A DNA stretch of 40,480 nt, taken from IMG/VR virus record IMGVR_UViG_3300031673_000177, positions 1-40,480 of that record. One strand, written 5' to 3'. Below, piece by piece: positions 10,212 to 40,452 of this stretch (position 1 is the stretch's first letter; each line of letters opens with the position of its first letter). The stretch comes from a virus. The notes below the pieces were generated by a model. It was not told where the DNA came from. It made no database searches and saw only the letters and a program-made list of their open reading frames with translations. The translations under genes and the position numbers were made by a program.

Positions 10212-11783
10212 TCAATAGCTCCATGCTTGTGCCTGGAACTCGTCCAGGTTGCGCTGTACCTGCTTGCCAGTGCGGTCGGCCACCACGGCGGCTATGTGCT
10301 CTGCGCTGGCATTGCTTCTGCCCACCGATACGTTCACGTTGACGGACCCTATGGTCGCCCCAGATTTGTATGCTCTGTCGTACCTCTCCAACCCAGCAGC
10401 ATACACCGCCGGATTGTCGCTGTAGTACGCGCCTAGCCTTCCATGCTTCAATGCACGTGCGAACTGCGTCGGGTCCGTGGCCGAGAGCGCATCCGGATAG
10501 TTGCGCTTCAGATTAGCCGCGTAGTACGCCGCGAACTCGCCCAGAGAGCCGAATGCGCGGTAATCCGTACCGGACCCCCCTGGAACGTTTATACCGGCCA
10601 GATTGTTGGCCGCGCCCAAGTGCGTAAAGCCGCCCGTCTCATGCGCCCATTGCGCCCATATTATGTCGGCAGGCACGCCGGTGGCCGCGCTCACTTGCTG
10701 CGCGGCACCTTTGGCCTCCGCCGCCAAGTCCGCCGAAGATCCGCCCGGCACGCGCATCCCCGCAGGATGTCCAGCGCGGTACGCGTCGAACAGGCCGCCC
10801 AGTACGCCGCCGCTCACTGCGCCTATCGTGGTGCCGGCCGCTCCGCCGCCCACCGCGCCGGCCAACATGCCGGCAGGGCCGCCGGCCACGCCGGCCACGC
10901 CGCCTATGATGGTTCCTAGCATACCGCCTACCGTGCCGCCGCCCACTGCACCGGTCAGCAGGCCAGTGAACTTCACCAGTAGGTCAGCGGCCACCGCGAT
11001 CCAGTGGGCCACGTCCGCGATAGCACGCGCCAGTTTGTCGAACGAAACGGCACCCTGCAGCGTCTCGTCTCCGGCCAGCAGTCCTATGATGTTCGTGAAC
11101 ACCTGCGCGAAGTCCACGCCCACCTGCCAGACATCCTTCATTATCTTCTCTATGTCACGCCAGACAGGCAAGAAGTCCCGCACCAGCGTCTTCGAAATAC
11201 GCGGTAGCGAGTTCACTACCCAATCGTTGAACTGCCGCAGCTTCTTGAGTAGTGTATCCGGCCCCAACCCCAGCGCGCGCAGGAAATCTGTCACAACGTG
11301 CATGCCTAGGTATTTGAGTTCCACTTCCATGCGTGTAAACTCAAAGCGAATGTCGCGCACCTTGCGCATCTGCGCGTCAAAATCCCTGCCTGCGGCCATA
11401 GCGCGCTGATCCTGTATGAGCGTGGCCGCGCGCCCGCGCAGTTCTGGGTCCCACATGAGGTTTTCCAGTGGCTGGCCCAGCGCGTCCATTGCCACCTTGA
11501 GGTCGCGCGCCTGATTCTTGCCCATGTACATGTGGAGCCCGAAAAGCCTAAATTCTTGGTCCGCCATGGCTACGTTGTCCACCAGCCCCACGGCGGCCGA
11601 GCCTACGGCCGCAAAGGCACCCACGAGGGCGGCCTCTACCCCAAGAACACGCTTGCTCAGCGCGCCTATGGTCCTCTCCACATCGGAGGAAATTTCACGC
11701 AGCGCCGACTGAAACTTTCCTATTCCGACAGCATCCACAGTGGCGCCGAGGCGCAAGAGGTATTCGTCAATGAAGCTGGGCAT
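10212..11783 (-). CDS. Tail tape measure protein with C-terminal muralytic domain
   Basis: This 523-residue protein begins like a tape measure (FIDEYLLRLGATVDAVGIGK, then FQSALREISSDVERT) and has a central Gly/Ala-rich membrane-like stretch near residues 285-345 (GGGTVGGMLGTIIGGVAGVA). From about residue 360, ATGVPADIIWAQWAHETGGF and NNLAGINVP are typical of a FlgJ/GH73-type N-acetylglucosaminidase or lysozyme domain; the Glu of HETGG is the likely acid. The length is short for a tape measure and would predict a tail of modest length. Its ATG lies just after the TAG that ends the chaperone extension. Confidence 0.83.
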   Translation of the reverse strand: MPSFIDEYLLRLGATVDAVGIGKFQSALREISSDVERTIGALSKRVLGVEAALVGAFAAVGSAAVGLVDNVAMADQEFRLFGLHMYMGKNQARDLKVAMDALGQPLENLMWDPELRGRAATLIQDQRAMAAGRDFDAQMRKVRDIRFEFTRMEVELKYLGMHVVTDFLRALGLGPDTLLKKLRQFNDWVVNSLPRISKTLVRDFLPVWRDIEKIMKDVWQVGVDFAQVFTNIIGLLAGDETLQGAVSFDKLARAIADVAHWIAVAADLLVKFTGLLTGAVGGGTVGGMLGTIIGGVAGVAGGPAGMLAGAVGGGAAGTTIGAVSGGVLGGLFDAYRAGHPAGMRVPGGSSADLAAEAKGAAQQVSAATGVPADIIWAQWAHETGGFTHLGAANNLAGINVPGGSGTDYRAFGSLGEFAAYYAANLKRNYPDALSATDPTQFARALKHGRLGAYYSDNPAVYAAGLERYDRAYKSGATIGSVNVNVSVGRSNASAEHIAAVVADRTGKQVQRNLDEFQAQAWSY

Positions 11784-19258: not shown

Positions 19259-20038
19259 TTATTTCTCAGGCTTAGACATTCCGCGAACTTTATACCACCA
19301 AGCACTGCGTTCCTCTGAAGTCAGCGCGGCCCATCTTGCCTTTGCAGATATAGAACATTTGGAGCGCGCCTCCGAAGTTCGGTGACCATCAGTTATAGCC
19401 TTGCGCCAAGCAGCCCGCTGCTTTGTTGTAGCCGTTTTAAAGCGGCTGTGCGCTCCCTCGGAGCAAGCTCGGCGGTGAGAAGCCGTTCGCATCTTGGCCT
19501 TAAACGCAGCTAAATTCTTAGGGTCTTTGTAAAACTTCGAAACGGACGCCGTACGGCGCGCTAACAGATCAGATGACATGCTCGCGGCAAGCGCCGTTCT
19601 GTACTCAAAAGACTCCATTCTTCTAAGGTGCAGAGCGCGGTTAGCGTCCGACGAAAACCAAACCTGCTTGGCAAAGCGCATCTTAGCTCTGGTTTCTTCA
19701 GTGTGTCTGAGCCCAGAAGCACCTTCACCGCCCGTCGTAAGGTTGTAGCCGCCTGGCGCCAACGTTCGTAAATTCTTAATCCACAGCGTTTCTGCTTTGT
19801 TGAGCGTGTGCACGGTTCAACACCGCTGCACGATTTCCATCCTAAAGTTTTCTACACCATACGCGGCTATCGCGCAATGCAGGTACAATCTTGAAGTGCC
19901 GGATAGAGCAGCGTTGATGTGCGCACGCCAGCGCTTTTCAGGCTCACGTTTTTCAGTTTTACCAACGTACTGCATATTGTTGGTCAAGTTAGTTATGACG
20001 TAAATTACGCCTGCCCAGCAAGAGTTCAGCTTAGCCAA
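19259..20038 (-). pseudogene. GIY-YIG homing endonuclease split by an in-frame TGA
   Basis: The gene starts at TTG 20038 behind GGAG. Residues 10-28 (GVIYVITNLTNNMQYVGKT) are a clear GIY-YIG core, followed by RWRAHINAA and IAAYGVENFRMEIVQRC. A TGA at 19817-19819 then interrupts the frame. The same frame continues with LNKAETLWIKNLRTLAPGGY and NLTTGGEG, then GLRHTEETRAKMRF, a NUMOD3-like DNA-binding motif, to a stop at 19259. The half after the stop carries the segment that normally holds the family's catalytic Glu (LNxxExxWI). No frameshift is present: only this one codon breaks the gene. A GTG at 19813 could restart translation. Confidence 0.82.
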
Positions 20039-20063
20039 TGACCGTCTCCATCACCGCCCAATT

Positions 20064-20133
20064 AATTTGGGGAAGCGCGGTGGACGTACCGCGCTTATCA
20101 CGCCGGATCATGACTCCGACGCTATCCCCAAAT
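20064..20133. repeat. Nested inverted repeats between capsid and endonuclease genes
   Basis: An 8-base inverted repeat (ATTTGGGG at 20065-20072 and CCCCAAAT at 20126-20133) encloses a 9-bp perfect hairpin (AAGCGCGGT at 20073-20081 with ACCGCGCTT at 20088-20096, 6-base loop). It lies between the major capsid stop and the endonuclease start. There is no T-run after the hairpin on either strand, so it is not a standard terminator. It could be an mRNA-processing or stability element or mark the edge of the endonuclease insertion. Confidence 0.5.
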
Positions 20134-20151
20134 ATATTTTACTACACTACG

Positions 20152-21222
20152 CTAGATTCCGTCAGCATAGACCTGCGTGGTGGTCCTCTTGAAAATTACT
20201 TCGCCAATGCACGCCATATAAGCGGTTTCGTAGGCAACGCCGGCCCTCGTGGTGGGAACGGTCATCACCTTGGTCATGACCTGCGGCACCTTGAGGTAGA
20301 GCGACTTCTTGTCGTTCTTGTAGAACACGGCACGGTCCAGCCCGTTGCCAGGCTGCCCCGGAGCCGCAGTGTTGCCGGCGCCAGTGCCGCTGATCCAGGG
20401 ATTGGGCAGCGGATTGATGCGGAAGTTGATGCCATGGTGTGCTGCAATGCAATGCTTCTCAATGTACTCAATGACGGACATCGCCACCGGCACGCCAGCG
20501 ATTGCCTGGGGTTGAGTGAGCACGTTGAACTGCGTGTAGGGAATCAACAGCCGATCAGCCATGCCCTCCTGCGCAGCGAACCCGCTGTTGCTAAGCGTCT
20601 GCGTCAGGCCGTAGTTGACATCCGCCAGAATCTCGTTGGGCGTCTTCTTGGCCCACGTGGTGGAGCCGCCAGCGCCAGCGGGCACCACATACTCGTACAC
20701 GTTGGGGTTGTTGATCAGCGCGGCGCCGCCCAGGAACCCAGCATAGACCACGAAGTCAATGGCCTTCACATAGTTCGTTTCCACGCTGTTTTCGTAGAGC
20801 TCCTGCAAGCTGAACGGCGGCGCCTGCCCGGTCCGAAGCGCGAACTCCATGCGCTGCAGATCGACATAGGTCACCGTCATGCCCATGGCCCAGATGTAGG
20901 TCGCCCACACACCCTTCTGCACGTCGGCCTGAGCCTCGGGCAGTTCGGTGTTGTTGGTGCCCTGCAATCCGTAGTTCTGGGTGCCCGTGGTGGCGTAGTT
21001 GGCGCTCCACGCGCTGAGGAACTGCGGGAAGCCCCCGCCTGTCTCAACGGTAATGTCGCGCGGATGGGTGACGGCCTGGAGCGGTTCCACCAAGTCGGTA
21101 TCAATGAGTTCGAGCTGGGCGTTGAGGAAGGCCAGGCCGGAAGCGCCCGCAGCATCGAATGCCTGCGCGCGATTGTAGCTTGGATATCCGTCATACCCAC
21201 GCGTTTTCATTTTGCGTGCCAT
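20152..21222 (-). CDS. Major capsid protein, DUF2184-like
   Basis: This 356-residue protein fits the DUF2184 capsid family: a short N-terminus, AQAFDAAGASGLAFLNAQLE then LIDTDLVEPL; NYATTGTQNYGLQGTNNTEL; AMGMTVTYVDLQRMEFALRT; NYVKAIDFVVYAG; and a C-terminal domain ending ETAYMACIGEVIFKRTTTQV. It follows the cement protein gene after 33 bases. It should form the HK97-fold shell of the head. Confidence 0.87.
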   Translation of the reverse strand: MARKMKTRGYDGYPSYNRAQAFDAAGASGLAFLNAQLELIDTDLVEPLQAVTHPRDITVETGGGFPQFLSAWSANYATTGTQNYGLQGTNNTELPEAQADVQKGVWATYIWAMGMTVTYVDLQRMEFALRTGQAPPFSLQELYENSVETNYVKAIDFVVYAGFLGGAALINNPNVYEYVVPAGAGGSTTWAKKTPNEILADVNYGLTQTLSNSGFAAQEGMADRLLIPYTQFNVLTQPQAIAGVPVAMSVIEYIEKHCIAAHHGINFRINPLPNPWISGTGAGNTAAPGQPGNGLDRAVFYKNDKKSLYLKVPQVMTKVMTVPTTRAGVAYETAYMACIGEVIFKRTTTQVYADGI

Positions 21223-21255
21223 GATTGTGATGTTCTCCTCTCGTGTGGGTATGGG

Positions 21256-22074
21256 TTAAGCCTGGTTGCGGATCTTGAAGGTGATCTCGGCCACGCTGTT
21301 GACGTCTACCGCGCCAGTACGCATCGCCGTGTTGGGCGCGAGTACCAGGTTGCTGAACGTGATCAGGGCACCCGCCGCGCTGGCAACGGTGAGGTTCTGG
21401 CTGATGGTGACGGAGGTGTTTGCAATCAGGCTCACGACATAGCTGCCTGCCGGCACGCCGATGCCCGACACCACCTGCCCGACCTGAATATTGGCCGTGC
21501 TGGCGAACGGGATAACTGCCTGCCCGGCAGCGGCAGCTCCTGCGCCCACGGCCACACTGAACAGGTCGGTGGCTGCAGGAGCGCCCACTTCCCAGTCACC
21601 CACGGTACCTGCGGTAACTGCGCCGTTGGCCACCACGCGGGTGTAAACCGGCGCGCCGCTGGTGGGTGAGTTGGCCACGGATACCATTACGGTACCGTTG
21701 CCGCGCTCCAGCACCTCGGCCATCTGGCCGGGGGCGTAGTAGCCAACCTGCAAGTCGCCCGGCTGGATACCCGCGCCGAACGGGTAGGCAAGCTGCGTCT
21801 GCACTTCGCGGACAGCCATGCCGGCGAACTGCGTGGCCACCAGTGCGATATTGGCCACTGCGTTATTGACGGCGTCGGCCACGCTAGTCCACACGCCGCC
21901 AGTAGCCGTGTTGATCAGCACGGCGGGGTCGCCGAAGTTGAGGTTGTAAGCCGCGCTGAAGGGCGTGAACACGCGCGCCGGAACGACGCGCTCACCCTGG
22001 CGGCTGATGGTACCGGGGAACCCGAGGTTCGGCCCGGTGACTGGGATGACCTGTCCGAAGCTAAGAGGGGCCAT
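21256..22074 (-). CDS. Head cement/decoration protein, Gp24-like
   Basis: This 272-residue protein begins APLSFGQVIPVTGPNLGFPG and contains PARVFTPFSAAYNLNFGDPA and VREVQTQLAYPFGAGIQPGD, a pattern typical of structural cement proteins encoded between the protease/scaffold and the DUF2184 capsid. Residues about 185-240 (STANIQVGQVVSGIGVPAGS; SVTISQNLTVASAAGALITF) are an inserted copy of a module shared with three other virion proteins here. It probably stabilises the shell. Confidence 0.75.
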   Translation of the reverse strand: MAPLSFGQVIPVTGPNLGFPGTISRQGERVVPARVFTPFSAAYNLNFGDPAVLINTATGGVWTSVADAVNNAVANIALVATQFAGMAVREVQTQLAYPFGAGIQPGDLQVGYYAPGQMAEVLERGNGTVMVSVANSPTSGAPVYTRVVANGAVTAGTVGDWEVGAPAATDLFSVAVGAGAAAAGQAVIPFASTANIQVGQVVSGIGVPAGSYVVSLIANTSVTISQNLTVASAAGALITFSNLVLAPNTAMRTGAVDVNSVAEITFKIRNQA

Positions 22075-33548: not shown

Positions 33549-33902
33549 CTACACCTCTCCCCTCGACCACTTCTGGTACTTGATCATCGCTGTGGCCCAC
33601 GCATCCGGCAACCACATATAGCGGAACCCGTCCTGCGGAGCGTTCATCTCAGGCTTGAGCCGCGCCAGGCGGCCATGTGCGAGCGTCAGCTTGAGCACGC
33701 CCTCGACCGGAGCCCCAGCCGCGCGAAACTTCTCAAGCAGGTACTGGTTGAACGCCGTGGGCGACGTCTTGGTGGCCCACATACGCCCGATCTCCTGCGC
33801 GTCCAAGGCGATCATGATGGGGCGCTCTTCCATGCTTTGCAACGCTGCATCTGTCTCTTCACGCGTGGCGGTGCGGTCTGTAACGGGGTCTTCGCTAATC
33901 AC
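33549..33902 (-). CDS. Unknown small protein downstream of large terminase
   Basis: The start is GTG 33902, sharing GTGA with the large terminase stop. The 117-residue product has a helical N-terminal half (REETDAALQSMEERPIMIAL) and a C-terminal half containing GVLKLTLAHGRLARLKPEMN and YMWLPDAWATAMIKYQKW. It has no motif I recognise. Tight coupling to terminase suggests a packaging or head role. Confidence 0.6.
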   Translation of the reverse strand: MISEDPVTDRTATREETDAALQSMEERPIMIALDAQEIGRMWATKTSPTAFNQYLLEKFRAAGAPVEGVLKLTLAHGRLARLKPEMNAPQDGFRYMWLPDAWATAMIKYQKWSRGEV

Positions 33903-35152
33903 TGTCCCACCAATCTGTACGGATGTATCTTGCCATGCAAGCCGTAGCGCAGGGCGTCCACTTCGTCGTCGTTGGTCTTCAACGGTTGCTCCTCGCCACG
34001 TTTGGCCGCTTTGTCATCCCAGGCGTACTGCGGCAGCTTCTTGCACAGGCGCGGGCAGCCTGTCTTGCTGATGCGCAACTTGCGGCGGTTGAGCATGGTG
34101 CTTATGGTGTGAATGCCTTCAAGCACGCTGTTGTCTGCGTCCACCACCCAGAAGCCTCGCCCCACAAGCTCAGCACGCAGGCTGGCGGCCTCCGGCGGCA
34201 ACCGCAACTCGAAACCCTTAGCCCCGAACTCCTCAAGGTCGTCAGCGTACTGCGAGTCCGTTTTCTGCTTCTGCATCTCGCGGCTGTCCCACACCTGCTC
34301 GCGTGTCACCCATATAACGTCGCTGTCGTCATAGAACTCAAGGTGGCATTGCGGGTGGTCCACGCCGGGGTCGCAACTGAACCAGCGGTCTACGTAGCCG
34401 CCCCGCCCCCATGGGTCCGGGTTGAGCAGTGCCGCCGCCGGGCTGCCGAACGTGTTCTCGGCGTCATCCCAACTGTCCCTGAATATAGAGCCCTCGGCCA
34501 CCACCCAGAGGCCGTCGATGTATCTGAGTTTGTAGACGCCGCTCTGGCTGGCTACAATGGCGGCCTTGGCATCAGGGCTGATGTTGGGGTTGTCGTCGAG
34601 TACGTAGGATATAACCTCAAGCTGCTCCGGACTGAACTTGTCAATGACGTCGGCCTTGAGGTAGGAGTACGGCGAACCGGGGTTGGTGGACCCTACAAAG
34701 CGCGACGCATCGTGTGACATACGCATCCACACCTGCGCCAGAAAGCTCCTAGGGAACTCCACTATCTCGTCGCCGATGAACAGGCCAATGGTGCTGCCCA
34801 GAATCTTCTTGTAGCTGGCGTCGTCCCTGGCTCCTACCACGAAGTACTGCTTGCCGTACAACCACATCTCGCCGGTGGACATGTTGTACGTGAAGTCGCC
34901 CTGTCCGACTATCGCAGCGATGTCGATGAGCATGTTGCGGTGGACGGTGTCCTTGCTCACGCCGGCAATGAACCGCTTGCCGGGCACATCATACTGGCTG
35001 TACTGCACGAGCAGCTTTGCGTCAATCGTGAAGGTTTTCGATGAACGAACACTGCCAGATAAAATCGTGTACCGTCTATCTTTAGACGGATTACGAAGTA
35101 TGAAATCACGAGACTTCTTGCCAAACGGCTTTACGAGCGGGGCGTCGCTCAT
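33899..35152 (-). CDS. terL: Terminase large subunit
   Basis: This 417-residue protein has the two-part terminase design. The ATPase part shows a Walker A-like GSVRSSKT at residues 33-40 and a Walker B-like GLFIGDE at 123-129, then MRMSHDASRFVGSTNPGSP (coupling region). The C-terminal nuclease part has FSCDPGVDHPQCHLEFYDD, FWVVDADNS and a terminal NDDEVDALRYG with acidic residues expected to bind metal. It follows the small subunit with no gap. It should cut and pump DNA into proheads. Confidence 0.9.
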   Translation of the reverse strand: MSDAPLVKPFGKKSRDFILRNPSKDRRYTILSGSVRSSKTFTIDAKLLVQYSQYDVPGKRFIAGVSKDTVHRNMLIDIAAIVGQGDFTYNMSTGEMWLYGKQYFVVGARDDASYKKILGSTIGLFIGDEIVEFPRSFLAQVWMRMSHDASRFVGSTNPGSPYSYLKADVIDKFSPEQLEVISYVLDDNPNISPDAKAAIVASQSGVYKLRYIDGLWVVAEGSIFRDSWDDAENTFGSPAAALLNPDPWGRGGYVDRWFSCDPGVDHPQCHLEFYDDSDVIWVTREQVWDSREMQKQKTDSQYADDLEEFGAKGFELRLPPEAASLRAELVGRGFWVVDADNSVLEGIHTISTMLNRRKLRISKTGCPRLCKKLPQYAWDDKAAKRGEEQPLKTNDDEVDALRYGLHGKIHPYRLVGQ

Positions 35153-35827
35153 TTATTGCGCCTCGGTCTTCAGCGCTTCAAACAAAGCACGCAGCTGCTC
35201 ATTACCGCTGTCTCCAACCTCAATAGGTTGGACGCCGAATTTCCTGGGGCGCTGCTTGGACAGCAGCCACTTCCTAGTGTCTACAAGCAACCGCGCTCGA
35301 TCCACGTTGTCATGCGTGCGAATTTCTTTGCTGTCGAATGGTTGACCCTGCGCGTCCGTGCCGCTGCGCGTGACTTCCACCGTGCCGGTCATCGGAGCGG
35401 CCGCGATCTCCGCCAGCTCCTCAGCCTGTTTGTCAAACTGTATGTCCCGAGACCGCGCGTAGAGCCTCTCAAAGTCAGGGCGTGTACGCAGCCATTCATA
35501 GAGGGTCAAAGATGTGGGCAAAGTAGGGTCATTGTCCAGTCGACCAAGAGTCATCTTGGTGTCTGTGGCGAACAACAGACACACTTTACGCGCAACCTCT
35601 TCGTCGTATTCGACAGGACGATTCACACTAGGCGCCGTGACCGGGTGGCCGTCAGGTTTGCGCTTAGCAAGTGGCTTATCTATATTCAGTAGTTTGCGCG
35701 CAACCTGTTGTGCGGCGCGGTGCTTTGCAGCGTTCTCGGCCTTATTACTGTGGCCGCCCTTTTTACGGCGCTCCCGCTTTGCAGACGCTGGCGCGCCCTT
35801 AGCCTTCTTGGCGGGTGCCATATTCAT
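35153..35827 (-). CDS. terS: Terminase small subunit
   Basis: This 224-residue protein starts at ATG 35827 behind AGGAG. It has a very basic N-terminus (KRERRKKGGHSNKAENAAKH), then a helix-turn-helix-like part (EEVARKVCLLFATDTKMTLG; LPTSLTLYEWLRTRPDFERL) and an oligomerisation/C-terminal part (VDTRKWLLSKQRPRKFGVQP), typical of small terminases in which W-L-x-x-K-x-x-P-x-K-x-G follows the helical core. It precedes the large subunit directly. Confidence 0.85.
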   Translation of the reverse strand: MNMAPAKKAKGAPASAKRERRKKGGHSNKAENAAKHRAAQQVARKLLNIDKPLAKRKPDGHPVTAPSVNRPVEYDEEVARKVCLLFATDTKMTLGRLDNDPTLPTSLTLYEWLRTRPDFERLYARSRDIQFDKQAEELAEIAAAPMTGTVEVTRSGTDAQGQPFDSKEIRTHDNVDRARLLVDTRKWLLSKQRPRKFGVQPIEVGDSGNEQLRALFEALKTEAQ

Positions 35828-35973: not shown

Positions 35974-36013
35974 AAAAAGAAGAGGCCACGTGCTTTGGGT
36001 CACGTGGCCTCTT
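35974..36013 (-). terminator. Intrinsic terminator downstream of the tmRNA gene
   Basis: A perfect 13-bp stem (35980-35992 with 36001-36013, 8-base loop) is followed on the minus strand by CTTTTTATC. It is a strong rho-independent terminator, placed just beyond the last structured part of the coding piece of the tmRNA. It isolates the tmRNA transcript from the terminase operon. Confidence 0.85.
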
Positions 36014-36019
36014 TGGACG

Positions 36020-36480
36020 CACACCTGACAACCGGGAAAGGAGATCCTGGAGGTCGGAGGATCACCGGTTGTTGGGCCGCGTCACACTTCGCCGCGATTC
36101 TGTTGCCAGGCTCGCGGCCAGCCCCGACTGCTGTTAGGCAGCCATCGGAAGTGCAGCCGCGTCGCGGGCCGGGAAGGCCAGCACCTTGGCGCTCTTCGCA
36201 CTGACACTGTTGGTGGCAGTTTTGGTTTAGTTCTCGTTACGGTGAGCACCAATCCCGGCATGAAACTGCAATCCGCTGATCCCGTCGAGACCTCGACGAG
36301 CCCACCATAACCGCCTCATTCATGTTCGGTGGCATGCCCAGGCAAGCCAGCGTGGGAAGCAACGAGCAAATGCTTGACGAGGCTTCCGGGGCGGTTATGG
36401 TGGACTCGGCGGGAATCGAACCCGCGTCCGAAATCACTTTCTTGCAGCGTTGACATGCTTAACTTACGGGGCATCGCAGA
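36020..36480 (-). ncRNA. ssrA: Circularly permuted (two-piece) tmRNA
   Basis: The minus strand carries the two halves in swapped order. The acceptor piece comes first and ends in CCA at 36398-36400: T-arm GCGGG-TTCGATT-CCCGC (36409-36425), then acceptor strand CGAGTCC (36402-36408), preceded by TTTCGGACG and TAAGCATG as in other tmRNAs. The coding piece starts at 36303 with GGGCTCG, which pairs with CGAGTCC (7 bp, one G-T), followed by GGTCTCGACGGGAT, the hallmark of tmRNA 5' ends. Helix P2 also forms between the pieces: TTGCAG (36266-36271) with CTGCAA (36442-36447), and CATGC (36258-36262) with GCATG (36454-36458). The likely tag frame is 36217-36137, 27 codons beginning ATNSVSAKSAKVL and ending AALPMAA, then TAA. 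GC-rich stems follow (36075-36081 with 36113-36119; 36028-36035 with 36065-36072). Outer ends are approximate. Confidence 0.88.
36304..36397 (-). other. Intervening segment of the permuted pre-tmRNA
   Basis: The segment between acceptor and coding pieces begins and ends in a perfect 12-bp inverted repeat (36304-36315 with 36390-36401; the latter includes the CCA complement), which extends the 7-bp acceptor stem to 19 bp in the precursor. The loop is 74 bases. In permuted tmRNAs the intervening part is removed during maturation. This extended stem is what the processing enzymes would act on. Confidence 0.8.
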
Positions 36481-36516
36481 TGCCTCCACCGCCTAGTCTG
36501 GTTCGGACTAGGACAC

Positions 36517-36627
36517 TTAATAGGTGAGCAGATCGCGCTTGGCGCGCTCCCAGGTGCTCTGCTCCTTGCACCCTGCACTGGCCGCAGCCAATGCAGACTT
36601 CAATCTCTCGCAGGTCTGTTTCCCCAC
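36517..36627 (-). CDS. Possible 36-residue protein following an in-frame TAG
   Basis: The frame opens at GTG 36625-36627, three bases after the TAG that ends the upstream gene and in the same frame. The product begins with GKQTCERLKSALAAASAGCK and ends STWERAKRDLLTY, an amphipathic helix with good coding character, then TAA. There is no clear ribosome site. It could be a separate small gene, or the C-terminal part of the upstream protein if the TAG is read through. Confidence 0.4.
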   Translation of the reverse strand: MGKQTCERLKSALAAASAGCKEQSTWERAKRDLLTY

Positions 36628-36630
36628 ACA

Positions 36631-36873
36631 CTATGTGACGTCGGGGTAGTCTATAGGTTCAAACACATTTTCGCCAATTTTGACATAAAACACTGCGCCG
36701 CACGCAATGATCTCCGCGCTGCGCTCGGAAACACCCCTGCGCAGTAGGTTGGCATGAAGATCTTCAAACAAATGTTCAGAAGCCTCACGAGTGACCCACA
36801 TTAACGTTGGCTCTCCACGTTCCAGTCTAGCCGCCATTTCCGACATGCATGTGAAATACTCCGACATCTCCAT
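36631..36873 (-). CDS. Unknown 80-residue protein
   Basis: I choose ATG 36873, with AAGG seven bases upstream; the frame extends back to 36906 without a better start. The product (SEYFTCMSEMAARLERGEPT, VTREASEHLFEDLHANLLRR, SAEIIACGAVFYVKIGENVF) is a compact helix-plus-strand protein ending IDYPDVT and a TAG. No family recognised. It lies just upstream of the tmRNA and is probably co-transcribed with it. Confidence 0.55.
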   Translation of the reverse strand: MEMSEYFTCMSEMAARLERGEPTLMWVTREASEHLFEDLHANLLRRGVSERSAEIIACGAVFYVKIGENVFEPIDYPDVT

Positions 36874-36981
36874 GAATAGACCTTGCCTCCGAATCCTGTC
36901 AAGCACTCACGTCAACGGCGCAATCTATTAATCCTTTGTCGCGCTTATCCCCCCACTCGACCGATTTCAATGCCTTTCATT

Positions 36982-37823: not shown

Positions 37824-38459
37824 ATGAACGCTATAGGTAGGTTGGTTTATAATAAACCTATCATGCGAATGCCTATTGTAGGGACCGTGGACACGGCGGT
37901 CTTGGACCGTGTCAGCGCATTTGTGACGCGCATTTGTTCAGATCCGGCGCTTTGCCGCCACGTCCTTGGCCCTCCGCCAAGCTCGACTAAATCGCAACCT
38001 CAACCCTCGCTTCACCCTTTTTTGCCCACTGACCCCGTTGACGCGCACAACATGGCGCAGTCAGATTACGCATCTCTTTGTGCTTCTTTTGACATTGACC
38101 CGCCTCAATATGGGGATGATTTCTTCGCCGCTATACGGCGCCGTCTTAACAATTTAGGCGTGCGTGGCATTCCCCTCAGTAAGCGTTTCAATGCCGAAGT
38201 TGCGCGGCTGGTCAAGGCCAGAAAAGCGGCGCAAAGAGCCGCTAAGGCGCGCCAACGCAAGGACGCCGCATATGCAGTAAAGGTCGCAGCACGGAGAACG
38301 GAGCACGAAATAGCCGCGCTCGCAAAGCGCAAAAATAAGAGCCGCATTATTGAGGCTTTACTGGTCAAGGGGCTGGATCATTTTGACAAAGCAACCACTA
38401 TTACGCACCGAGATGCTGGCGAAGTTGCAGAGCAGCGGCCTGACCGCGGCGCACGCTAA
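37824..38459 (+). CDS. Unknown basic protein, first gene of the replication unit
   Basis: From ATG 37824 the product has 211 residues. The start is uncertain: ATGs at 37710, 37863 and 38052 are in frame and none has a good ribosome site. The N-terminal half (VGTVDTAVLDRVSAFVTRIC; QSDYASLCASFDIDPPQYGD) is followed by FFAAIRRRLNNLGVRGIPLS and a long basic helix (residues about 130-190, rich in Lys, Arg and Ala). This may bind nucleic acid. It overlaps the primase-helicase gene. No family recognised. Confidence 0.55.
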   Translation: MNAIGRLVYNKPIMRMPIVGTVDTAVLDRVSAFVTRICSDPALCRHVLGPPPSSTKSQPQPSLHPFLPTDPVDAHNMAQSDYASLCASFDIDPPQYGDDFFAAIRRRLNNLGVRGIPLSKRFNAEVARLVKARKAAQRAAKARQRKDAAYAVKVAARRTEHEIAALAKRKNKSRIIEALLVKGLDHFDKATTITHRDAGEVAEQRPDRGAR

Positions 38460-40452
38460 AACCCTTTGTATTGAACCGTTCGAAAACGCTGGATTTCGTA
38501 TACCTTACTTCTCTCCGACCGGTACAGTTCTACATGATGCTTACGCAGTTCGATTTTTGGCAGAAGAGCCAGCCGGAATACATGCAGTGGCGCCCAGCGC
38601 CGCGTTGCGTTACGCGCACACGGACGCTACCGAAGGCTTAGTGTATCTACCGCCCATATTACAAGCTGACGCCACATGGGTAGACGTTGCCGCAGACCCC
38701 GTGCCGTTGTGCATTGTGGCGGGTGAGCTCACGGCCGCCGCGCTCACGGCCGCCAAAGGCGGTTACATAACACTAGGCCTGGGCGCGGCGGTGGACTGGT
38801 TTTGCCGCGCCTCGGCGTTGGCGTTGCCACCGTCACTGGCGGCCTTTAACTGGGCCGCGCGTCCGGTGCGGCTCTGCTTCAACAGTGATGTAGCTTCGCG
38901 CCCGCGCCTTATGCTAGCCCTTAGCCGGCTGGTGCTGCTGCTCACGGCGCATAGCGCCAGTGTAAGTCGCCTTCGCTGGCCGGACAGCGTCGACACGCAG
39001 CCGCAGACTGTAGTACGTTACATGCGGGAGCAGGGCGTAAAGGCGCTCGCAGATTTAATCGAGACCGCCGAGCTTACCGAGCCGGAGGTGGAGTTCTACC
39101 GCTTGAATGAAGAAGTGGCCCTGCTGTGGTCGGGCGGAGCGGCTGGCAACCTGATGCGGCTGGCCGACGCGCAGATTATGAAGCCTAAGACCTGCACCGA
39201 GAGCTTTTACTCCGACCGCGTTTATTATGAGGCCGTGCAGAGCAAGAACGGCGGTAGCTCGCTGGTGCCGCGGCCGGCGGCGCCTGCCTGGTTAAAGTGG
39301 CCCTGGAAACTGCGGGTGCGGCAGATCACCTACGCGCCCGGCGCACCACGCATAACTTTCGACAATGACTATAACCGCTACTGCCCAGACGGTGCGCGCC
39401 CGCAGAAAGGCGACATTACGCCGTGGCTGGCCCTGCTGACGCATATGTTCAAGGACTTGCCTGAGGAGCACATGCTTTGGCTAAAGCGGTGGTTCGCCTA
39501 TCCGCTGCAACATCCCGGCACTAAGCTCTACACATGTGTGTTGCTGTGGTCACATGCCGGGGGCACGGGCAAGAACCTGCTGGCCGAGACAATGATCCCC
39601 ATCTACGGTCCTAGCAACTGTGAAACTGTGCGCAGCAAGCACTTGACCAGCGACTTTAACGAGTGGATCGAGGGTAAGCAGTACATCATCGGCGACGAGA
39701 TAAGCCTGGATGATAAGCGCCAGACCACCGGCGATCTCAAGGCTATGCTAAGCAACGAGCACGTGCGCATCAACTTGAAGGGCGTAGGTGCCTACAAAAT
39801 GCCGGACTGTGCCAATTACGTACTCACCAGTAATGACCCCGTAGCCCTGAGCCTGGAGCCAGGGGAGCGTAGAACCTTTGTCCACCACGTGAATGAGACG
39901 CCGCTCGGCGCTCTTAAGGGCGACCAGTACGCAGCCTGGTTGCGGGCCACTGGGGCTGCGGCCCTGGCCTGGTACTTGACAAAAGAACTGGACCTGGGCG
40001 AGTTCAGCCCCCACGCGCCGCCACCCATGACGGCCGCGCGGCAAGACATGATCAACAACAGCCGTAGCGAGGTGGATGCTTGGGCCGTGGCGTTGAAGGA
40101 CGCGCCTGACGCTTTATTGGCCGGCCCCAGCGCTAAGTTTGCAGGGCAGACTACGCCGGGACCGTTTAACGTATACACGTCCGATGAATTGCTGCGCCTG
40201 TATGACCCCGAGGAGCGCAAGCGCGTAGGCAAGCGCGCCTTGGGTATTGCCCTGGAGCGTGCGGGCTTCCGCAAGGCAGCGGACAACAACGGCCGGTTGC
40301 CAAACGGCACGCGTCCGCAGTTCTGGTTTGTGCGAGGCGACAACCCTAACCATCCTGCCGTGTCCGGCCAGAGAGCGGCAGAGCTTTACACGGCGGAGCG
40401 CGGCAAGACTGTGCGCTCCGCAGGTGTGGAAAAAGGAGCCCGCGTGCAATGA
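38413..40452 (+). CDS. Primase-helicase: DUF3854-like domain plus SF3 helicase
   Basis: I start at ATG 38413 (679 residues); a TTG at 38383 is an alternative, and the gene overlaps the upstream one. The N-terminal 170 residues (SGLTAAHAKTLCIEPFENAG; GLVYLPPILQADATWVDVAA; VPLCIVAGELTAAALTAAKG) resemble DUF3854, a TOPRIM-like primase-associated domain. The C-terminal part is a superfamily 3 helicase: Walker A HAGGTGKN near residue 380, Walker B QYIIGDEISLDD near residue 420, motif C NYVLTSND near residue 470, then GERRTFVHHV. Such proteins start phage DNA replication. It is the main plus-strand gene. Confidence 0.85.
   Translation: MLAKLQSSGLTAAHAKTLCIEPFENAGFRIPYFSPTGTVLHDAYAVRFLAEEPAGIHAVAPSAALRYAHTDATEGLVYLPPILQADATWVDVAADPVPLCIVAGELTAAALTAAKGGYITLGLGAAVDWFCRASALALPPSLAAFNWAARPVRLCFNSDVASRPRLMLALSRLVLLLTAHSASVSRLRWPDSVDTQPQTVVRYMREQGVKALADLIETAELTEPEVEFYRLNEEVALLWSGGAAGNLMRLADAQIMKPKTCTESFYSDRVYYEAVQSKNGGSSLVPRPAAPAWLKWPWKLRVRQITYAPGAPRITFDNDYNRYCPDGARPQKGDITPWLALLTHMFKDLPEEHMLWLKRWFAYPLQHPGTKLYTCVLLWSHAGGTGKNLLAETMIPIYGPSNCETVRSKHLTSDFNEWIEGKQYIIGDEISLDDKRQTTGDLKAMLSNEHVRINLKGVGAYKMPDCANYVLTSNDPVALSLEPGERRTFVHHVNETPLGALKGDQYAAWLRATGAAALAWYLTKELDLGEFSPHAPPPMTAARQDMINNSRSEVDAWAVALKDAPDALLAGPSAKFAGQTTPGPFNVYTSDELLRLYDPEERKRVGKRALGIALERAGFRKAADNNGRLPNGTRPQFWFVRGDNPNHPAVSGQRAAELYTAERGKTVRSAGVEKGARVQ

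Follow-up and report, generated by a model that had tools for sequence, protein, structure and literature searches.

A survey of 18,146 phage genomes reported tmRNA genes in 402; among the 133 unique structures, 53 were two-piece, and these were mostly aquatic (PMC9004378). Another study has 79 unique phage tmRNA sequences among 97,179, with tags of 10 aa as the most frequent (PMC11915505). The tmRNA genes of mycobacteriophages Bxz1, Wildcat and others are phage-borne ssrA genes as well, but one-piece rather than permuted (PMC4131195). A two-piece phage tmRNA is therefore not a new kind of gene, because such RNAs have been published (PMC9004378, PMC11915505). They are less unusual in phages than an earlier note on the present DNA had supposed: besides the 53 of 133 unique phage structures, more than 140 permuted tmRNAs occur on the IMG/VR contigs sampled here. 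The gene described below joins the known phage two-piece tmRNAs; less ordinary are its expanded tag and a precursor helix that closes over the CCA.

The window, that is, the whole stretch of DNA analysed, corresponds to an IMG/VR record 40,480 bases long; related and compared IMG/VR viral contigs are given L numbers. A complete permuted tmRNA gene was found on its minus strand. RF04321 (tmRNA_permuted, the new merged permuted-tmRNA model of Rfam, cut-off 47 bits) matches at 36458–36134 with 94.8 bits and an E-value of 2.8e-17 over the full length of the model (1–213). The alpha_tmRNA model (RF01849) matches at 36526–36088 with 51.5 bits against a cut-off of 50 and is the top of its clan. ARAGORN gave a starred tmRNA call at 36043–36490 with the tag ATNSVSAKSAKVLAFPARDAAALPMAA followed by a stop. 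The earlier note had proposed a circularly permuted two-piece tmRNA in a phage genome and had set the covariance-model search as a refuting test; both models scored over their cut-offs, and ARAGORN, compensatory changes and conserved synteny agree with them. The features of the locus, in window coordinates, are as follows.

38350–40452, plus: divergent primase (DUF5906; phrog_1156, 1.5e-30; PF19263); its counterpart at the corresponding position of L004 is 51% identical
36631–36906, minus: small ORF upstream of the tmRNA, 91 aa, no family; 70% DNA-identical stretch upstream of terS in L002/L003
36492–36512, minus: 5' hairpin CCTAGTC-CGAACCA-GACTAGG, 5' of the acceptor piece; stems identical in L004, one loop base different
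36470–36484, minus: second 5' hairpin GGCATC/GATGCC; its sequence differs yet pairs in L004 (GGCGAGCC/GGTTTGCC)
36091–36490, minus: permuted tmRNA gene (acceptor piece, intervening sequence, coding piece), by RF04321, alpha_tmRNA and ARAGORN
36429–36458, minus: P2, acceptor-piece strand (GCAUG, CUGCAA, GAU, UCG), with its partner at 36284–36258
36409–36425, minus: T arm GCGGG-TTCGATT-CCCGC with a canonical T loop
36398–36408, minus: acceptor 3' strand CGAGTCC (36408–36402), discriminator A73 (36401) and encoded CCA (36400–36398)
36304–36397, minus: 94-nt intervening sequence that processing is predicted to excise; the acceptor stem is lengthened by its ends
36258–36303, minus: 5' part of the coding piece, with acceptor GGGCTCG (36303–36297), D-like loop GGTCTCGACGG (about 36292–36282) and the coding strand of P2
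36229–36250, minus: pseudoknot PK1, GGUGCUC with GAGAACU, 6 of 7 pairs
36134–36217, minus: tag reading frame ATNSVSAKSAKVLAFPARDAAALPMAA and stop codon, by ARAGORN
36091–36118, minus: terminal helix GCCGCGA...UCGCGGC of the coding piece, enclosing alpha-type GCCTGGCAACAGAA and fitting the 3' end of alpha_tmRNA
35980–36013, minus: intrinsic terminator, 13-pair stem and CTTTTT, tail CTTTTTATCT
35153–35827, minus: terminase small subunit (phrog_1482, 4.3e-23; PF20901)
33899–35152, minus: terminase large subunit, TerL (phrog_2, 5.6e-27)

The acceptor half (T arm, acceptor strand and CCA) lies upstream of the coding half on the same strand, as had been proposed without naming the strand, here found to be minus, and the coordinates given for the 7-bp acceptor stem (36297–36303/36402–36408) were exact. 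All seven pairs form (GGGCUCG/CGAGUCC), the third being G3-U70, the pair through which AlaRS recognises tmRNA. The pairing of the halves through P2 was likewise present, with four segments (5, 6, 3 and 3 pairs) instead of the two claimed. PK1, placed ahead of the resume codon, and the 7-bp terminal helix are additional to the elements recognised earlier. A strong terminator after the gene and a location in the packaging region had also been read correctly: the 13-pair stem with CTTTTT occupies 36013–35980, and the gene immediately precedes the small and large terminase genes. The stems of the hairpin at 36492–36512 are unchanged in L004 while the surroundings are about 70% identical. This hairpin may be part of the primary transcript, the mature 5' tail or end, or a regulatory element.

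Judged from its gene content, the window is from a contractile-tailed phage, since terminase, portal, head, tail sheath and baseplate genes are present, and at TerL and portal its lineage shares no more than about 30% identity with isolated phages. The tblastn matches of these two proteins among isolated phages (about 30% identity) were to phages of very different hosts, a secreted-protein-like window gene had no match in the same search, and no relative of the window TerL was found in 84,980 bacterial and archaeal genomes. With the phage two-piece tmRNAs described before (Melnitz and others, 53 ARAGORN calls, PMC9004378) the window gene shares a complete permuted ssrA without evidence of integration, a body of the alpha lineage and a full tag. 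It differs from the Melnitz type by its place upstream of terminase genes, its canonical T loop and its 27-aa tag, and no glutamine riboswitch was found at cut-off in the window. The Melnitz type belongs to a marine myophage cluster.

Gene order, P2, PK1 and CCTGGCAACAGAA near the 3' end are as in the permuted tmRNA of alphaproteobacteria (RF01849), so that the body is of the alpha type. The T loop, in contrast, is TTCGATT instead of the alpha-type GGCRGTA/G; 83 of 87 parsed alpha genes carry GGCGGTA, GGCAGTA or GGCAGTG. The acceptor is GGGCTCG and not GGGGGCG, the tag is not of the ANDN kind, and the intervening sequence is 94 nt long against a median of 35 nt in alpha genes.

Relatives of the phage were located through TerL in IMG/VR. 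L004, a 105-kb contig with TerL 68% and primase 51% identical to those of the window, has a homologous permuted tmRNA (77.8 bits) at the matching position ahead of the terminase genes, and in both contigs the tmRNA lies between these genes and the divergent primase. Helices were assigned by hand with the Rfam alignment as a guide for the comparison of the window with L004, L131 and L137. The T stem changes from GCGGG/CCCGC in the window to GUGGG/CCCAC in L004, the C-G to U-A compensatory change of the T arm being found in both L004 and L137. P2 covaries in L004, L131 and L137; CUGCAA/UUGCAG of the window becomes CUGUGG/CUACAG, and GAU/AUC becomes AAU/AUU, in L004. For PK1, GGUGCUC/GAGAACU of the window is replaced by GAUGCUC/GAGAAUC in L004 and by UAUGCCC/GGGAAUG in L131; L137 does not form PK1 as assigned, and the other helices are kept in both L131 and L137. 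The terminal helix covaries fully across the four contigs (GCCGCGA/UCGCGGC in the window, GCCGG/CCGGC in L004). The earlier note had proposed a search for compensatory changes in the acceptor stem 36297–36303/36402–36408: all seven pairs and the AlaRS identity pair are kept in all four contigs, where the stem is identical. In L004, too, the acceptor stem runs on into the intervening sequence, by a helix of different sequence. Gene anatomy, structural covariation and the conservation of place and frame in a relative are direct observations. L002, with TerL 75% identical, has no tmRNA at the corresponding place; hence the gene is dispensable and comes and goes, which counts against a working tmRNA.

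In the precursor, ACCATAACCGCC (36401–36390) pairs perfectly with GGCGGTTATGGT (36315–36304). These are the 12 perfect pairs that the earlier note had seen extending the acceptor stem, and none of 100,000 shuffles of the intervening sequence reached 12. The 129-nt precursor hairpin has a fold z of −6.4, with no shuffle of 200 as good. The note had regarded such an extension as a requirement of permuted precursors; this did not hold, for most sampled alphaproteobacterial genes are without it. At least 11 of the first 16 positions are paired in 120 of 144 distinct viral genes among the matches listed, compared with 14 of 85 alpha chromosomal genes, where the viral genes are mutually related, so that the test is not independent, and were collected by T-arm patterns from contigs some of which may hold host DNA. 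Shuffled sequences reach this pairing in less than 1%. The median intervening length is 72 nt in the viral genes among the matches listed and 35 nt in the alpha chromosomal ones. As a general observation, viral permuted tmRNA genes usually have a 12–15 bp helix of acceptor, CCA and intervening sequence, and most alpha chromosomal genes do not. Among the matches listed, C74 is unpaired in 93% of the viral helices and A73, C75 and A76 are paired, owing to the TGAT that directly precedes G1 in 100 of 120 viral extended helices. The clade of the window has a mismatch at C75 instead (flank TTGT). With its flank TGGT, the window helix is paired throughout, CCA included, as in one other of the 120 viral extended helices among the matches listed. 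In the modelled precursor, a fully paired CCA could slow end processing, and this was counted against a working tmRNA.

For the analysis of origin, about 87 chromosomal tmRNAs drawn evenly across Alphaproteobacteria (the class of G060, taken as Alphaproteobacteria from match scores and tags) were compared with permuted genes from viral contigs, at least about 165 in number. A quick tree built on the tRNA-like core grouped the window only with L004, L116, L131 and L137, all viral (support 99, among the matches listed); within this group the window and L004 form a sister pair (93), which L116 joins (86). These four viral contigs, and not bacterial chromosomes, carry the nearest tmRNAs among the matches listed. 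Like the window, they have the acceptor GGGCTCG (GGGCATG in L116) and the extended helix of CCA and intervening sequence; the canonical T loop and the acceptor sequence separate the clade from the sampled alpha chromosomes. These comparisons support the assignment of the window tmRNA to a phage-only clade and not to the ordinary alphaproteobacterial chromosomal kind. L116, L131 and L137 have no detectable relative of the window TerL; therefore the tmRNA clade appears to be shared by different phages, unless the records of these three contigs are incomplete. A search of bacterial genomes with the pattern of T arm and acceptor 3' strand (CGANTCCACCA) gave no pointer to a donor, because the matches were mainly standard one-piece beta- and gammaproteobacterial tmRNA genes; no record titled Alphaproteobacteria was among them. 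By blastn, the tmRNA had no related gene in plasmids or in isolated phages, where only a 36-nt T-arm match in Phass-1, at a place with no annotated feature, was found.

The window tag has 27 residues and that of L004 has 28 aa. The two frames differ by one whole codon (a 3-nt indel), so that the frame is conserved, and the changes fall on third, first and second codon positions in 11, 6 and 5 cases, respectively. VSxK, VLAFP and the MAA end are common to both tags. The window tag starts with Ala and has a hydrophobic/Ala terminus of the proteolysis type and a stop codon; it is without the usual ANDN start, a point against a working tmRNA, and is unlike any sampled chromosomal alpha tag. The tags of L116, L131 and L137 (ATAEPFALPMAA, AEDNALPMAA and ADASALPMAA, respectively) are shorter (10–12 aa) with the same end, and same-clade viral tags end in ALPMAA or QMAA. 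Since these three tags are shorter and end alike, the simplest account is that the 15–16 extra residues arose on the branch leading to the window and L004. A long tag as a general phage trait was considered and rejected: it recurs in viral contigs, but also in 4 of 83 chromosomal genes.

Several observations were made on other viral tags. The tmRNAs of L384, L389, L406, L416, L398, L102 and L121 have tags of 28–31 aa (e.g. ANDNALSNVTFVDFSAPVTAVNEDFALAA in four contigs), some of which look like tandem duplications. An LPMAA ending recurs in viral permuted tags (window, L062, L082, L112, L116, L131, L137, L045) and is found in none of 83 alpha chromosomal tags. An apparently unrelated phage tmRNA (L023:6687–7034, minus strand) has the tag ASANKTAKVIAFPASASMAFAAAA with KV[IL]AFPA in common with the window tag; this may be convergent or horizontally shared.

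Very probably, the gene encodes a functional phage tmRNA that rescues stalled ribosomes during infection with the help of AlaRS, SmpB, RNase P and proteases of the host. Its own terminator was counted in favour. As directly observed, there is no SmpB gene in the seven phage records searched, some of them fragments; therefore host SmpB would be needed. For the processing enzymes, charging, ribosome rescue, fate of the tag and benefit to the phage we infer the following course. The minus-strand transcript would stop at the terminator, with the acceptor stem continuing into the intervening sequence in the predicted fold. Host RNase P, cutting at G1, and a 3' endonuclease/exonuclease acting at the CCA would excise the intervening 94 nt, and the acceptor and coding RNAs would stay joined via the acceptor stem and P2. 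Host AlaRS would charge the molecule through G3-U70, and host SmpB would bring it to ribosomes that have stalled on broken or nonstop messages, where translation would resume on the phage tag. The tagged protein, ending in MAA, would probably be degraded by host ClpXP-type proteases. A possible gain to the phage is that stalling would be offset when messages are cut or decay during infection.

Since the tag is expanded and part of the addition is conserved, a phage-specific fate of tagged proteins is possible. The RNA might then compete with or modulate host trans-translation, taking SmpB and stalled ribosomes and replacing the host tag with one of different fate (slower decay, another protease or a binding function) instead of merely adding rescue capacity. 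The difference of the tag from all sampled chromosomal alpha tags and the partly conserved 15–16 extra residues (VSxK, VLAFP) speak for such a role, and an RNA of phage DS6A consisting only of a tmRNA-like domain inhibits host tmRNA (PMC4131195, PMC11915505); against it, the tag is complete with its stop codon and its C-terminal MAA is typical of proteolysis-type endings, and we consider it unlikely. Doubtful, too, is the joint claim that phage permuted tmRNAs are RNA lineages of their own, with a distinct precursor architecture (a long helix of acceptor stem, CCA and intervening sequence, normally with one conserved C74 mismatch) and, in some, an expanded tag giving a phage-chosen fate and not simple degradation.

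The gene could also be a drifting passenger, acquired from a host through recombination or an imprecise excision, in the way that prophage ssrA fragments arise (PMC9004378); its absence from L002 would fit. The completeness and covariation of the gene, its frame and place kept in L004, the phage-only clade and the lack of an integrase in the records searched make this very improbable. No point was found to support misassembled host DNA as the source of the contig or of the tmRNA segment. The gene stands between terminase genes and a phage primase, with the same order around the L004 homologue, and the sample holds no close bacterial tmRNA, which leaves this explanation with a negligible chance. 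If the gene is a functional phage tmRNA, phages outside the well-sampled marine groups keep their own complete, structurally constrained ribosome-rescue RNA, and a phage-only tmRNA lineage would be common to phages with unrelated terminases. The expanded, conserved tag makes it testable whether trans-translation redirects proteins beyond freeing ribosomes.

Several other candidates in the window were considered. An explanation of the locus as an attachment site was rejected, the gene being complete and no tyrosine integrase being found in the records searched. The plus-strand ORF 20038–21669 was taken as a shadow of the minus-strand ORF 20152–21222. A tRNA-Arg called by ARAGORN at 10769–10861 (minus) lies inside the tape-measure frame (10212–11783), has no Rfam tRNA match at the gathering score and is probably false. 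By eye, the minus-strand ORF 19259–19813, which has no Pfam match, resembles homing endonuclease-type proteins (PGGYNLTTGGEGASG). In L004, the permuted tmRNA adjoins two tRNA genes, and in L131, a 134-kb phage contig with a related tmRNA, a large tRNA gene array surrounds it.
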